From assembly GCF_000240165.1 (NCBI RefSeq), contig NC_017586.1:1798001-1862000 (forward strand): a stretch of DNA of 64,000 bases. Direction: 5' to 3'. The notes under the pieces are model-generated. The model had not been told where the DNA came from and did not search any database. It saw nothing but the letters and a program-made list of their open reading frames with translations. A program made the translations under genes and the position numbers. Of the stretch, positions 5,605 through 9,912 are shown in pieces. The DNA comes from Streptantibioticus cattleyicolor NRRL 8057 = DSM 46488 (GTDB lineage Bacteria; Actinomycetota; Actinomycetes; Streptomycetales; Streptomycetaceae). Each line of letters opens with the position of its first letter. Within the stretch, counting starts at the first letter, position 1.

Positions 5605-6327
5605 TTGATCAAGGGCATCGACGTTTCCTCGTACCAGTCCACCGACTTCGACACTGACGGCCTCGACTTCGTCTTCATCAAGGCCACCGAGGGCACCTCG
5701 TACGTCAACCCGCGCATGGCCGGCCAGGCGGCCACCGCCCGCGCCGCCGGCCTGGTGGTCGGCTTCTACCACTACATCTCACCGGGCGACATGTCCGCGC
5801 AGGCCGCCTTCTTCGTGGACCGGTGCGACTCCGTACCGGGCGACGTCCTGTTCGCCGACTGGGAAGAGCCGGGCGTGTCCTGCGCTCAGAAGGACCAGTT
5901 CATCCGCGAGGTGAAGCGCCTGCGCGGCTCGAACCACAAGGTCGGCCTGTACTGCAACCAGGACTACTGGCTCAACCGCGACTCCAGCTCGTACGCCGGT
6001 GACGCCCTCTGGATCGCCGACTACGTAACCCCGGGGCGCCCGCGCATCCAGGCGAACTGGCTCTTCCACCAGTACACCGACCGCCCGTTGGACACCAACG
6101 TGGCCAGCTTCGCCAACCGCGCGGCGCTGCGCTCATGGGCGGGCGGCAGCTCGGCGCCGGCCCCGAAGCCGACCCCGGGACCGGTCACGTACACGGTCCG
6201 CTCCGGCGACACCCTCTCCGGCATCGCGCAGAAGTACGGCACCACCGTGGCGAAGTTGTCGGCGGCCAACGGCATCAAGGACCCGGACATGATCTTCGCC
6301 GGTCAGGTTCTCAAAATCGTGAAGTGA
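5605..6327 (+). CDS. endolysin: GH25 muramidase with LysM domain
   Basis: A 240-residue cell-wall hydrolase starting at TTG 5605 behind AGGAG (5594-5598). Residues 1-178 are a GH25 (lysozyme-like) domain: GIDVSSYQ near the N-terminus supplies Asp6, and FADWEEP (residues 83-89) supplies the Asp85/Glu87 pair expected in the active site. A Pro/Ala linker (182-193) leads to one C-terminal LysM domain (about 195-239, [19 protein letters not shown]) for peptidoglycan binding. There is no signal peptide, so release probably depends on the holin-like protein downstream. The 3' end overlaps by 17 nt the end of an antisense gene. Confidence 0.9.
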
Positions 6328-6667
6328 GCGACGAGGGTGGAGGAATCTCCCGGATGCCGATGACGTGCGCCAGCCGGATCGAGAGAGCCTGATCGCCGTA
6401 GCGGTCCACGAAGCCGCGGCACACGGCGGCTGGTACCCCCCGCACGGCAGTTTCATGGCAGACCACGTGCCCGTCCGCCTCCAACGCGCTGCGGATGACG
6501 CGCCGTACTGCTTGAGGTGGCACAGGCGTGCCAGCCCGCAGAATGCAGGTGCCGCACTGCTCACTGAGGATGCGTGTTCCTTCTTGATCCGCCACGTCAC
6601 AGGCGCCGGAGTCCTCTTCTTCCACCTCTACGTCCCCATCGGGCCCTTGCATCTGCATGGAGTCCAT
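6311..6667 (-). CDS. Cys/His-rich small phage protein (moron), antisense in the lysis cassette
   Basis: A 118-residue protein read against the late operon. Residues 36-110 show the pattern CGTCILRAG ... HVVCHET ... [11 protein letters not shown] ... IREIPPP. I recognise this as a small family common in Streptomyces phages and prophages (C-x2-C, C-H and a further Cys, probably zinc binding). The conserved residues here are Cys38, Cys41, Cys70, His71 and Cys83. The N-terminal 30 residues are acidic and variable. GGAGG lies 12 nt before ATG 6667. The function of the family is unknown. Its opposite orientation between endolysin and holin suggests independent expression, possibly during lysogeny. 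Confidence 0.65.
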
Positions 6668-6674
6668 TCTGCCT

Positions 6675-6693
6675 GCCCGCCTCCGTGGCGGGC
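6675..6693 (+). terminator. hairpin upstream of holin-like gene
   Basis: A perfect 7-bp stem GCCCGCC / GGCGGGC with loop TCCGT is followed by TTCCTCTTCT on the plus strand. It sits between the antisense gene start and the holin-like gene, and resembles the hairpin before the endolysin. Confidence 0.5.
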
Positions 6694-6715
6694 TTCCTCT
6701 TCTCAAGGTGATCGA

Positions 6716-6946
6716 ATGAATGAATTCATCAAGAAGCACGCGGTGCGGGCATTCGCCGTCCTCGCCGCCCTGGTCCCCGTCCTGGTCGACCAGTGGCCGG
6801 GTATCCCGTGGGAGGCGCTGGCCGCCGTCGTGGCCGCGATCCTCGGTGTGGGCGAGGTGACCCAGCGGCACTGGGACGCACGGCTGAACGCACCCGTCGA
6901 GCCGGCGGCGGAGGTTCCCGCCGAGCCGGCGGGACCGGCCGTCTGA
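6716..6946 (+). CDS. holin-like small membrane protein
   Basis: A 76-residue protein starting at ATG 6716 (AAGGTG upstream). It has a short charged N-terminus, a hydrophobic segment at about 9-25, a Pro-containing turn, a second hydrophobic segment at about 33-47, and a polar tail rich in Pro, Ala and Glu. This two-segment layout and its place next to the endolysin fit a small actinophage holin, or a membrane protein assisting lysis. A longer in-frame reading from 6365 exists, but it crosses the antisense gene and a hairpin and is not protein-like. No motif proves pore formation. Confidence 0.6.
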   Translation: MNEFIKKHAVRAFAVLAALVPVLVDQWPGIPWEALAAVVAAILGVGEVTQRHWDARLNAPVEPAAEVPAEPAGPAV

Positions 6947-6960
6947 TCCCGGACGCACGA

Positions 6961-6988
6961 AAGCCCCTGCCATCCGGCAGGGGCTTTC
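6961..6988 (+). terminator. late-operon terminator
   Basis: A perfect 12-bp stem AAAGCCCCTGCC / GGCAGGGGCTTT with an ATCC loop lies 15 nt after the holin-like stop. It probably ends the late transcript. A small extra hairpin (CTCCGC/GCGGAG, 6992-7007) follows and runs into the repeat cluster. Confidence 0.85.
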
Positions 6989-7005
6989 AACTCCGCGAAG
7001 GCGGA

Positions 7006-7343
7006 GCTTACCCCCCGCTAGCGCGGGGACAACGCGGATCTCTCCGCAAGCCCAACAGACTGCTTGCGCGCCTGTCACGGGCCACCCCCGCGCAGCGGGG
7101 ACAACGAAAAGCGTGCAGCGGGACCACCCCCGCTAACGCGGGGACAACATCCCTGTCACTTGAACATCAGGGATGCATGTTCACTTGTGAAGGAACATCC
7201 CCGCCGAAGCGGGGCCAAACTTGCGCCCGACAACCCCTGCAAGGCGACTCTCGGGCCATCCCCGCCGAAGCGGGTCCAACGTTGTGCCCTGTTGAGCCAT
7301 GCAAAGCGACTCTAGGGCGACCCCCGCAGAGGCGGGGTCAACG
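7006..7343 (-). CRISPR. degenerate type I-E-like CRISPR repeat cluster (six units, no cas genes)
   Basis: Six 28-29-nt units lie at 7006-7034, 7079-7106, 7121-7149, 7193-7221, 7254-7281 and 7316-7343. Read on the minus strand they follow GTTG-x-CCCCGC ... GCGGGG-(A/G)TG(G/T)-(T/C)CC, the layout of actinobacterial type I-E repeats: 5' GTTG, internal palindrome, 3' GGGGATGGTCC-like end. End-to-end spacings are 72, 43, 71, 61 and 62 nt, so only two match the usual 61 nt. The palindromic stems are kept while loops vary. Two 'spacers' resemble each other and others hold hairpins. No cas gene lies nearby. It could be a decayed array, a phage CRISPR mimic or structured RNA. Confidence 0.5.
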
Positions 7344-7384
7344 ACTCGTACGTTAGCGCAGACGCACCCTGTATGTCAGCCAGT

Positions 7385-7657
7385 TCACTCGTTCTGGCCT
7401 CCGGGCCCTGCCTCCCGGTGCTTCCGTAGTGCTTCGCGCCCGACTTCGGTGATGACCCTGGTGGACTCGTAGATGGATCCGAAGACCTCTACGTACCCTG
7501 CATCGATGAGTTCTCCCAGCACTGGGTAAGAACGCTTGTGCGTCGCTGTGGGTCTGGCCGGTCCGGTGACCTCCAAGAGAGCCAAGGTCATGTACTCGCC
7601 CTCGCTGAGGATCACGCCACCGTCTCCCGTGTCACCGTTCGGGTCCACCCCGCGCAT
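7385..7657 (-). CDS. small unknown protein, possible winged-helix fold
   Basis: A 90-residue protein starting at ATG 7657 (AGGAGAAAGG upstream). The alternation of helices and a final turn-strand segment (VLGELIDAGYVEVF ... TRVITEVGREALRKHREA) is reminiscent of winged-helix DNA-binding proteins that read 'domain-GY-x-turn-T-x-x-G-x-x-AL'. This is a pattern impression, not a confirmed match. It is the leftmost early-strand gene, separated by a strong hairpin from the large early genes, and lies next to the CRISPR-like repeats. A regulatory role is possible. Confidence 0.5.
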   Translation of the reverse strand: MRGVDPNGDTGDGGVILSEGEYMTLALLEVTGPARPTATHKRSYPVLGELIDAGYVEVFGSIYESTRVITEVGREALRKHREAGPGGQNE

Positions 7658-7707
7658 CCCGCACCCTTTCTCCTGCTCGGCCTCATACTGGCACTACCCT
7701 GTGACAA

Positions 7708-7740
7708 CGGCCCCTGGACGCGTGCTTCGTCCAGGGGCCG
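7708..7740 (-). terminator. terminator after early genes
   Basis: A perfect 13-bp stem CGGCCCCTGGACG / CGTCCAGGGGCCG with a 7-nt loop lies 27 nt past the stop of the DUF6884 gene. It closes the leftward block that starts at 12067. The flanking T-run is better on the plus strand, so it may act both ways. Confidence 0.75.
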
Positions 7741-7767
7741 CTTTCTGCGTTTCTGCTGTTCAGTGCC

Positions 7768-9912
7768 TCACACCTCGCCACGGGCGTACTGCTCGCAGCG
7801 TCGCCGCCACCAGGCCCTCGCAGCCTCCGTGTCCGCCTCCTCAGCTATGTAGAGGAAGTTCTCCGGCACCTGGCGGAGCGGCCGGCTCGACTTCCCGGCC
7901 TTCGTCGGCAACTCGGGCTCGTCGTCCTGGTCCTCGTCGGCAACCAGCTCGGCCTCCACCTCCTGTGCCACCTCCCAGTTGCCCGGCAAGGCAGCCCAGT
8001 GGATCCGGGTGGACAGCTTGGCGTTCAGCAGCACCTCACCGGTCTCCAGGTCGGCCAGCTCGTACACGCTGTCCCCGGTGTAGGTGACCTCGACCCGACG
8101 CCAAGGCCCCGGTGCCTTGCCCTTCCTCCCCGCCTTGCCGCCGAACCACATCCGGTGAAGGCGCGGCTGGTACCGGGTCGGCAGTCCGCCGACTTCGCGT
8201 AGCGGTCCGGTGTACCACTTCATCGGGGCCGCCGTCGGCATGGTCTCCGGTGTCTCGTCCAGTGGTTCGGGGTCGCCTCCGTAGATGCTGGCGAGCTGCT
8301 GGAGCTGATCCCCGATGCCCCCGTTCAACGGTGCCTCCGCCTGGGGCCAGACCGACCGGGCCAGCTCAACGTACGCGCTCCCGCCCAGCACCGTGACACG
8401 TGCGTCGGTGAGTCCCATGCTCGCGGCCTGGTCCCGCAGGGCGTCCGGCTGCATCGCGCCTGGTTCTCCGGCCCTCACGTCGTACGTCTCGATCTCCTGA
8501 TCAAGAGGCAGCAACCCGTACCGGGCACTGAGTATCAGGACGGTCCCTCCGTCCTTCGTCAGGGCCTCGGCTGCGCGTCGGCACGCCCGGTGGTAACTCC
8601 CGACGTACATGTCACCGGCTGCTGCCCGGTCCAGCGCCGCCTTGGCCCCTCCGCAGGCCACGAGTACAACCCGCTCCGGCTCCGTGGGTGACTGCTGCTC
8701 TTGGTCCTGGTGCTCGTCGCCAGCCGCAAGGTAGGCGTCGACCAGCTTCGAAGTGCGCTCGTGGTCGGGGGTGTACCGCTGGACGAACGTGGTTGCCGCA
8801 CGCTTCACCGCAGGGTGATCGTGGCCCTCGAAGTGCCGGGCGCGATCCAGCAGCCAGCGCAGCCCATCGACGGTCACACGCCCCTTCGCTCCGGCCTCCG
8901 TCCAGCTCATCGCGGTCAACTCTGCAAGCAGGTCGTCGCGTCCGCGAAGCTGCCCATGGCTGAAGGACCGACGCATCAACTCTGACAGAGACTTGGGCAA
9001 CTTGACCTCGTGCCGGATCTCCCTCGGGTCGTCCGGTACGTAGTCCATCTCGTGCCGAGACAGCAGCGACTTCGCGGCCCGCATCTCGTTGCCGTTCTTG
9101 CTGTTCAGCCATCCACGAGCAACCGTGAGCGCCGCCCCGAGAGCAGCGTTCGTCAGCTGTACGGTTCCGCCCTCGTTGGGGCTGCGCCCGGCCTCGCGCA
9201 TCGCCTCGACAGCTCGGGAGCACGCTTCCGTCAACTCCCGCTCGCCCTTCGTGGCCCCGTTCAGCCGCGCCGCGTGCTTGCGAAGCTGCGCGGGCATGTC
9301 CACACTGATCATTTCCTTCTTCTCCCTCTTCTCCAGGTCAGCGGCGGGGCTCCACCCGGTCCACATCCGGTAGTGCGTGAGCGCCACGGCATAGTCCGCA
9401 CCTTCGATCACCCGCGTGGACAGTTCGCTGTGTTGCTTGAGCCACCTCATCGCCTGGTCGCGGTAGGTGGGCAGGTCGCTCATGTCGAACGATTCGCCTG
9501 CCGATGACCACATGCCGACTTCTCGCGCCAGCTCTGCCATAACGGCTCGTGTGGCGGCGGACTCGCGGACTTCGGTCATGATTGATCCCTCTGGTAGTTC
9601 GTCGTGGCTGTCCACCAGCACCCGAAGGCCGGGCGCGTCGACCAGCTCCCGGCACGCGGCACAGTCGCAGTCGTGCTGGCACAGGCGACAGGTCAGCTCG
9701 TCACACAGCCGCTCCGGCCCGTGCCCGTCGCCACGGTGGTAATAGAGGGGGTGCACCACGTGCTCCCGCATGTACGGGTGTCCGTGCGCAACCGGCTCTT
9801 CCGGGCATGGCCACTGGGCTTGAGCTGCGTTCTCCTTGCTGAGGAAGGCGGCCCGACAGCGGACGCACTGAAACCGTCCCTCGGGCCGCCACCTCACCTC
9901 GTGCCTTGTCAC
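7768..9912 (-). CDS. zinc-ribbon / DUF6884-type phage protein
   Basis: A 714-residue protein whose GTG start overlaps the upstream stop (GTGA at 9909-9912). Residues 16-90 are Cys-rich (C-x2-C at 16-19; CRLCQHDCDCAAC at 75-87) and look zinc binding. Residues about 110-400 are helical and unrecognised. Residues about 414-540 (VVLVACGGAKAALDRA ... MYVGSYHRACRRAA ... ILSARYGLLPLDQEIETYDVR) match the layout of DUF6884 (conserved small-residue/Lys loop, LY-x-GS, ILSA-x-GLL and YD). The usual 'CS' of the first loop is replaced by 'CG'. The C-terminus is variable. An internal ATG at 9579 with AGAGGGA upstream could give a shorter product lacking the zinc region. A nucleic-acid role is inference only. 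Confidence 0.65.
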   Translation of the reverse strand: MTRHEVRWRPEGRFQCVRCRAAFLSKENAAQAQWPCPEEPVAHGHPYMREHVVHPLYYHRGDGHGPERLCDELTCRLCQHDCDCAACRELVDAPGLRVLVDSHDELPEGSIMTEVRESAATRAVMAELAREVGMWSSAGESFDMSDLPTYRDQAMRWLKQHSELSTRVIEGADYAVALTHYRMWTGWSPAADLEKREKKEMISVDMPAQLRKHAARLNGATKGERELTEACSRAVEAMREAGRSPNEGGTVQLTNAALGAALTVARGWLNSKNGNEMRAAKSLLSRHEMDYVPDDPREIRHEVKLPKSLSELMRRSFSHGQLRGRDDLLAELTAMSWTEAGAKGRVTVDGLRWLLDRARHFEGHDHPAVKRAATTFVQRYTPDHERTSKLVDAYLAAGDEHQDQEQQSPTEPERVVLVACGGAKAALDRAAAGDMYVGSYHRACRRAAEALTKDGGTVLILSARYGLLPLDQEIETYDVRAGEPGAMQPDALRDQAASMGLTDARVTVLGGSAYVELARSVWPQAEAPLNGGIGDQLQQLASIYGGDPEPLDETPETMPTAAPMKWYTGPLREVGGLPTRYQPRLHRMWFGGKAGRKGKAPGPWRRVEVTYTGDSVYELADLETGEVLLNAKLSTRIHWAALPGNWEVAQEVEAELVADEDQDDEPELPTKAGKSSRPLRQVPENFLYIAEEADTEAARAWWRRRCEQYARGEV

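Follow-up and report, generated by a model that had tools for sequence, protein, structure and literature searches.

The minus strand of positions 7006-7342 of the window (by which we mean the whole 64,000-nt stretch of Streptantibioticus cattleyicolor DNA that was analysed) carries six type I-E-like CRISPR repeat units within 337 nt, a set that is far beyond chance. The locus is intergenic, lies in a mobile element (it is contained in an IMG/VR viral contig and has phage genes upstream) and has no match to cas6e, cse1 or cas1. Judging from its sequence, it is probably (we would put the probability at roughly 0.6) a gene of the phage for a small RNA in which mimics of the type I-E CRISPR repeat follow one another, i.e. 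a multi-unit decoy resembling the Racrs, small phage RNAs that mimic a CRISPR repeat (PMC10651486). We infer the decoy function; the present host of the array appears to have no I-E system that could serve as the target. The features of the locus are given below in window coordinates, with the units scored on the consensus positions of the I-E repeat (maximum 24). All six units are on one strand and, in the direction of transcription, unit 6 comes first and unit 1 last.

5605-6327, plus strand: endolysin of the lysis cassette, with GH25 and LysM domains
6716-6946, plus strand: 76-aa ORF after the endolysin, putative holin
6959-6988, no strand assigned: perfect 13-bp hairpin, an inverted repeat between the late operon and the array
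7006-7033, minus strand: unit 1, last transcribed, score 19.5 of 24, 3' handle degenerate
7079-7105, minus strand: unit 2, 3-nt loop, score 24 of 24
7121-7148, minus strand: unit 3, score 24 of 24, fits the whole actinobacterial I-E pattern
7192-7220, minus strand: unit 4 in its 29-nt form, GTTTGGCCCCGCTTCGGCGGGGATGTTCC; the 28-nt form (7192-7219) scores 22.5 of 24
7253-7280, minus strand: unit 5, GTTGGACCCGCTTCGGCGGGGATGGCCC, score 23 of 24, one stem base changed
7281-7314, minus strand: gap between units 6 and 5, the last handle base plus a 33-nt 'spacer' that is related in sequence to the next spacer
7315-7342, minus strand: unit 6, GTTGACCCCGCCTCTGCGGGGGTCGCCC, first transcribed, score 22.5 of 24
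7350-7379, minus strand: promoter-like site, CTGACA - 18 nt - TAACGT, a script pattern match that ends 7 nt before unit 6
7385-7657, minus strand: 90-aa ORF upstream of the array, ending 42 nt before unit 6

An earlier note on this DNA, made from the letters alone, had described six I-E-like units of 28-29 nt on the minus strand, and this description is borne out: five of the units score at least 22.5, a level reached by none of the sites in 40 simulated first-order Markov windows of 64 kb (sites of at least 19.5 averaged 0.275 per window), and the window read backwards contained a single site of at least 19 and none of at least 20. Read by eye, the units have the actinobacterial I-E stem CCCCGC-loop-GCGGGG, as had been claimed; of the repeat ends, also claimed to be those of I-E, the 5' GT.G is kept in five of the six and the 3' TG..CC in four. 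The resemblance thus extends beyond a generic hairpin, a point the note had wanted checked. Comparisons among the five units with 4-nt loops gave stem differences in 4 of 120 cases, loop differences in 26 of 40 and differences at the handle positions T, G, C and C in 15 of 40, which agrees with the reported conservation of the stem; this contrast within the window is less affected by selection than the conservation figures for other loci, which are partly selected because the detection score uses I-E consensus positions, although the units had also first been spotted by their stems. The strict pattern GTNGNCCCCGCNNNNGCGGGGNTGNNCC, which unit 3 fits, occurs in 86 of the 394 family genomes (read backwards, in 1 of 394), and the region of unit 3 matches I-E arrays with, for example, 91% identity over 32 nt and 86% over 43 nt. 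Compared with a small set of 12 distinct host-array repeats, the best match differs at 4 of 28 positions.

Taken from unit 6 to unit 1 and measured between successive unit ends, the spacings are 62, 61, 71, 42 and 73 nt (61, 61, about 71, 43 and 73 as pitches), so that the range of 43-72 nt given previously was about right (observed: 42-73). The 87-nt stretches formed by units 6, 5 and 4 with their intervening segments are 79% identical copies; since neighbouring repeat-spacer segments are copies of each other, this part of the array grew by duplication, without spacer capture. Several spurious ORFs cross the units, none of them with support, and we found no related prophage in which a coding frame runs through a homologous locus. 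Both strands of 6990-7350 fold better than all of 100 shuffled sequences, an excess that the hairpins alone can explain.

With regard to the transcription signals, the scan of 6900-7800 with the sigma-70 consensus listed no promoter, not even the site CTGACA-18-TAACGT. The hairpin at 6959-6988 is a probable terminator for both strands, which on the minus strand would place it after unit 1. The late-operon terminator that had been placed before the array looks like one, as a perfect 13-bp hairpin, but is absent from the terminator-like sites of the consensus scan of 6900-7800, the sole such site being the hairpin of unit 4 itself (7192-7219). When 6001-9000 was compared with Rfam (E up to 1), no CRISPR family came up; the single match, below threshold at E=0.093, places a Brucella sRNA on the hairpin at 6959-6988.

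The position of the array downstream of a prophage lysis cassette was confirmed: the endolysin and the tail genes lie upstream, both on the plus strand. The 76-aa ORF is a possible holin, with one relative (50% identical) in another viral contig; at the DNA level, 117 nt match a phage Ponzi gene labelled 'membrane protein', and Pfam and PHROG gave no match. The earlier assignment to a Streptomyces prophage is unproven, the host genome being the only one of its genus in the set compared. The IMG/VR contig matches the window identically over 12,348 nt and is probably from the same strain, and therefore does not count as independent evidence. Models for cas6e, cse1 and cas1 had zero matches in the whole host genome, which extends the earlier remark that no cas genes are nearby; cas6e is found in 185 of the 394 family genomes. 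The host does have an orphan I-E array of four repeats with 61-nt spacing (C2:643707-643910), the repeat of which differs from five of the window units (unit 2 left out) at 3-7 of 24 arm positions. Single unit-like sites occur elsewhere in the host genome at C2:728901 and C2:3266535.

We also looked for related clusters in family genomes and viral contigs. The DNA search of the 394 family genomes matched 25, including the genome of the window itself, and in the other 24 the longest match covered at most 92 of 391 bases. On inspection, these loci proved to be I-E arrays spaced at about 61 nt, single units, hairpins of the chromosome or chance matches. In IMG/VR, the strict pattern was found in 22 contigs (that of the window included), 14 of which were read as having unequal units, a slightly different strict pattern matched only the window's own viral contig, and a two-stem pattern matched at least 120 stretches. 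Within the 133 loci from the strict pattern and the listed two-stem matches, at least 596 sites scored 17 or more, as compared with 53 in the reversed sequences. Defining a cluster as two or more sites scoring at least 17, with one of at least 21, the loci from the strict, two-stem and spacing scans yielded, among the matches listed, at least 64 clusters in 49 non-redundant groups. Among these, 39 groups (that of the window included) were divergent, defined by a mean arm identity below 93%, and 10 were near-identical. In some of the divergent groups with a 61-nt pitch, e.g. L160 with its 13 units, we may be looking at ordinary arrays whose repeats have drifted.

The surroundings of these clusters were compared with random positions in the same contigs. 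The box TANNNT had its end in the 30 nt before the first unit in 12 of 22 divergent clusters with a short pitch (the window counted; expected 1.0) and in 8 of 16 divergent clusters with a 61-nt pitch (expected 0.5), as against 1 of 10 near-identical arrays (expected 1.4). Downstream hairpins are a weaker signal than this box: hairpins of at least 12 pairs within 70 nt were present in 6/21 short-pitch, 2/17 divergent 61-pitch and 0/9 near-identical clusters (controls about 4%, 4% and 3%), and those of at least 10 pairs in 7/21, 5/17 and 1/9, respectively (controls 15%, 16% and 13%). Within the units of 39 clusters, the handle motif was kept at 135 of 156 positions in first units, 248 of 292 in middle units and 80 of 156 in last units, so that conservation runs from each handle through to the hairpin that follows it. 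The last repeats of ordinary arrays are degenerate as well and this trait does not by itself separate decoys from arrays.

The commonest non-canonical spacing in the divergent clusters is 49 nt, 12 below the I-E period of 61. Expressed as an offset (the distance from the cut site to the next stem relative to the canonical 45 nt), 49 of 52 gaps in near-identical arrays were at 0, and the 82 gaps in divergent clusters fell into 40 within 1 nt of 0, 28 at -11 to -13, 4 at -18 and 10 elsewhere. The two-stem pattern had allowed pitches of 42-72 and therefore did not favour 49. A replication scan with a different front motif (GCT) and pitches of 37-59, for which 43, 49 and 55 had been predicted beforehand, gave 54 pairs, 44 of them with both hairpin arms: 22 of these 44 were at 49 and 34 at 48-50, with none at 43 and the others at 47 (3), 51 (1), 53 (2), 55 (1) and 59 (3). 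The remaining ten pairs, in which an arm was missing, showed no common spacing and ranged over 39-51. The 21 newly fetched loci (L454 and L461 being one sequence) contributed 23 pairs, 12 at 49 and 16 at 48-50, and after grouping of the replication scan a pitch of 48-50 was present in 20 of 27 groups. The 12-nt shortening is therefore established.

A strict 6-nt ladder (61 ± 6n, with 43/49/55 and 67/73/79 predicted ahead of the scans) is not. A half-unit scan over pitches of 39-59 that demanded at least 5 of 6 positions in both arms gave 15 pairs: seven at 43, including one from the window itself, six at 49 and two at 50; 12 of its 14 loci had been fetched before, and pairs with a weaker arm (4 of 6) were in neither group. 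The prediction of 67/73/79 failed, as the range 63-93 returned only the 71 and 73 of the window and one unit-skipping pair (93). With the window left out, 32 of 37 off-canonical gaps deviate by no more than 1 nt from a multiple of 6, most of them at -12, and because this one mode dominates, the period scan is unable to distinguish a period of 6 from others. In the window taken by itself, 4 of 5 spacings come within 1 nt of the ladder, which is not significant. The window lacks the 49-nt mode and fits the class loosely, and its 61-nt spacings also fit ordinary crRNAs. The irregular spacers that had been noted earlier are thus real in the window, but the class is dominated by 61 and 49 nt.

Clusters were also recovered from isolated phages. 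A search of five array loci in the phage records gave two weak matches, to the near-identical Streptomyces sanglieri phages Eklok (NC_073484.1) and AxeJC (NC_073485.1) (E=0.08) and to ZL12 (NC_013420.1; E=0.008), and nothing for the other three loci. Eklok and AxeJC have six units between genes 53 and 54 (scores 16.5-23; offsets 0, -1, -3, -12 and -11) and ZL12 has three weaker ones with a hairpin behind them (scores 16-19.5; offsets 0 and -12), all of these units being unannotated and in gaps. The spacer/array search of the phage records also matched Naboo. In the viral contig L054 (region 6700-6990) an array comes just after genes for a LysM endolysin and for small membrane and collagen-like proteins, as assigned by eye, and is followed by a terminator, 44 nt of which are identical to a terminator in the phages SF1 and SF3 (L428 and L429, 1480-1560); in these two phages the endolysin and holin genes precede the common terminator and no units were found. 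It would appear from this that arrays are gained and lost in the neighbourhood of lysis cassettes, where the array of the window is found as well.

How such a chain could act may be proposed as follows: the chain would be transcribed during infection, the Cas6e of a host having one would cut after each hairpin, and the products, carrying a handle and a hairpin without a useful guide, would occupy Cas6e, Cas5e, Cas7e and Cas8e, so that the pool of working Cascade would fall. The decoy or mimic reading offered earlier is supported to the extent that divergent clusters recur in viral contigs with a promoter-like box, and in named phages, but the host has no I-E genes to inhibit. A more specific mechanism, in which the spacer of each predicted product would pair with its 5' handle and so lock it, was found unsupported and dropped, since there was no excess over shuffled spacers: mean handle pairing, observed versus shuffled, was 0.47 vs 0.46 for short-pitch clusters (37 products), 0.44 vs 0.46 for divergent 61-pitch clusters (38), 0.35 vs 0.35 for near-identical viral arrays (40 drawn) and 0.54 vs 0.54 for host arrays (126 products, at most 6 per locus, 21 loci). 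The five products of the window gave 0.70 vs 0.55, with shuffle fractions for the single products of 0.14, 0.09, 0.09, 0.23 and 0.58.

The closest described relatives of the proposed decoy are the Racrs (PMC10651486). Of these, RacrIF1 is cut by Cas6f and leads to an aberrant complex of Cas6 and Cas7, while inhibition of the I-E system of a Pseudomonas was shown for two I-E Racrs. The window shares with them a repeat mimic in an intergenic region of a phage, without cas genes and with a promoter-like site upstream; it differs in being a chain of six divergent units, not a solitary repeat unit, and in that its predicted products, unlike that of RacrIF1, would have a 5' handle and could therefore form complete but target-less, sometimes smaller, Cascades. 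The published search (PMC10651486) required 90% identity to CRISPR repeats of known subtype. Full matches less than 100 bp apart were not considered in it, and a candidate was dropped if its 100-bp flank held a partial match of over 70%; chains like that of the window would be left out by such filters, and the number of multi-unit decoys would thus be underestimated. The same source reports acr genes to be often near Racr candidates. Directly upstream of the window's array, on the same strand, lies the orphan 90-aa ORF (7385-7657), which occurs in its own contig and genome, has no relative in the viral contigs, the phage records and the 393 other family genomes, and has a predicted structure of low confidence (mean pLDDT 53.7). 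Solitary repeats and mini-arrays of one or two spacers with host-like repeats have been described already; the titles and abstract openings of the open-licence papers among the matches listed contain no description of multi-unit divergent clusters. If the decoy reading is true, RNA anti-CRISPRs would not be single repeats only, and phages would also build multi-unit decoys.

A wider reading, which we put forward tentatively and regard as possible but short of probable, is that there is a class of overlooked phage RNA genes, i.e. chains of 2-6 divergent I-E mimics, often 12 nt shorter, the products of which would nucleate a stunted Cascade without a target; the window would be a long-spaced member. 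The footprint of Cas7 is 6 nt, and the 12-nt shortening common among the other members could be interpreted as the loss of two such footprints from each product. The stunted Cascade would then have about four Cas7 subunits, and the sponge would use up the single-copy Cas6e, Cas5e and Cas8e for less RNA and less Cas7, with the diversity of the units widening the range of Cas6e enzymes caught. The number of Cas7 subunits varies with crRNA length (PMC6828817), and targets are still degraded, though slowly, with I-E Cascade whose spacers are 6 or 12 nt shorter (PMC7296934), so that shortness need not disable the complex but the lack of a target would. If this holds, the preferred spacing of decoys may reflect the architecture of Cascade and would predict the stoichiometry of the Cascade assembled on them, which is testable, and the named, isolated Streptomyces phages are ready material.

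The main rival to the decoy is a functionless, decaying remnant of an ordinary I-E array that was captured by the phage or its ancestor. The 61-nt spacings in part of the array, the degenerate last repeat and the orphan array of the host, for which no cas genes were found, fit such an origin. Actinomycete I-E arrays (PMC4762764) share with the window the CCCCGC-N4-GCGGGG stem, the flanking motifs and, in part, the 61-nt spacing. Unlike these, the window has no cas genes, its repeats and spacings are unequal, with no constant period, and its spacers are related. Decay is at odds with stems that are kept where loops differ, with the recurrence of divergent clusters that have promoter-like boxes when near-identical arrays do not, and with the 48-50-nt spacing found across the groups, which it would not give, and we consider it unlikely.

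Less probable again is a working viral mini-array that uses the I-E system of a host against competing phages or plasmids. Working mini-arrays are known for archaeal viruses (PMC6858448), and the virus-borne examples (PMC6858448, PMC8616872 and PMC11656645) resemble the window in being cas-less and in having units and intervening segments in a virus genome. Furthermore, the viral contigs L060 (2598-2690) and L062 (815-1030) look like one locus: they have in common the promoter region, the last unit and the terminator of a small array, which has 2 units in the former and 4 in the latter; the two extra repeat-spacer units are at the promoter end, as if spacers had been gained or lost. Against this explanation, two spacers of the window are related to each other and the expected targets were not found: the array gave 6 matches with E≤10 among 50,697 phage records and 18 among 72,556 plasmid records, none better than E=0.3, so that the comparison of the interspersed segments with phages and plasmids proposed earlier, where matches to related viruses would be expected of a mini-array, came out negative. 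The described mini-arrays have one or two spacers, and their repeats are mostly identical or very similar to those of the host (PMC8616872); the window has more units, its repeats diverge, no I-E cas genes were found in its own host and the repeat of the orphan array differs.

We give a still slimmer chance to short-guide RNAs that would direct the Cascade of the host to repress genes without cutting. In a type I-B system shortened spacers can repress transcription without interference (PMC10989794), but the array had no match elsewhere in its own genome at E≤0.001.

Generic G+C-rich hairpins such as terminators or REP-like elements are the least credible explanation, as the ends are conserved besides the stem, all six units are on one strand and the controls are almost empty, even though unit 4 is terminator-like and matches a UUCG hairpin in phage Tomas and the bare stem-pair pattern was found in at least 119 stretches of genome contigs and in many unrelated bacteria (among the 119 matches listed, I-E-like units stood next to each other as a pair in 8, for the most part within ordinary arrays). 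The Tomas match itself was rejected as a cluster, being a lone UUCG terminator-like hairpin.

A few further occurrences were recorded outside the viral contigs. In two genomes (L031 and L033, both 1501-1770) the motif occurs on the chromosome: a small gene, read by eye as that of ribosomal protein L28, is preceded by the I-E-like hairpin GTTGTCCCCGCG..AGCGGGGGTGACCC and followed by a second one, GTTCTCCCCGCGCAAGCGGGGGTGAGTC. Two-unit divergent clusters with a pitch of 58-61 and a changed end of the second unit were seen in five loci of family genomes (L406, L407, L408, L411 and L413). The Streptomyces uncialis plasmid NZ_CP109584.1 (L425, 1941-2100) has two identical I-E-like repeats 61 nt apart and a third, degraded one, all in an unannotated gap.
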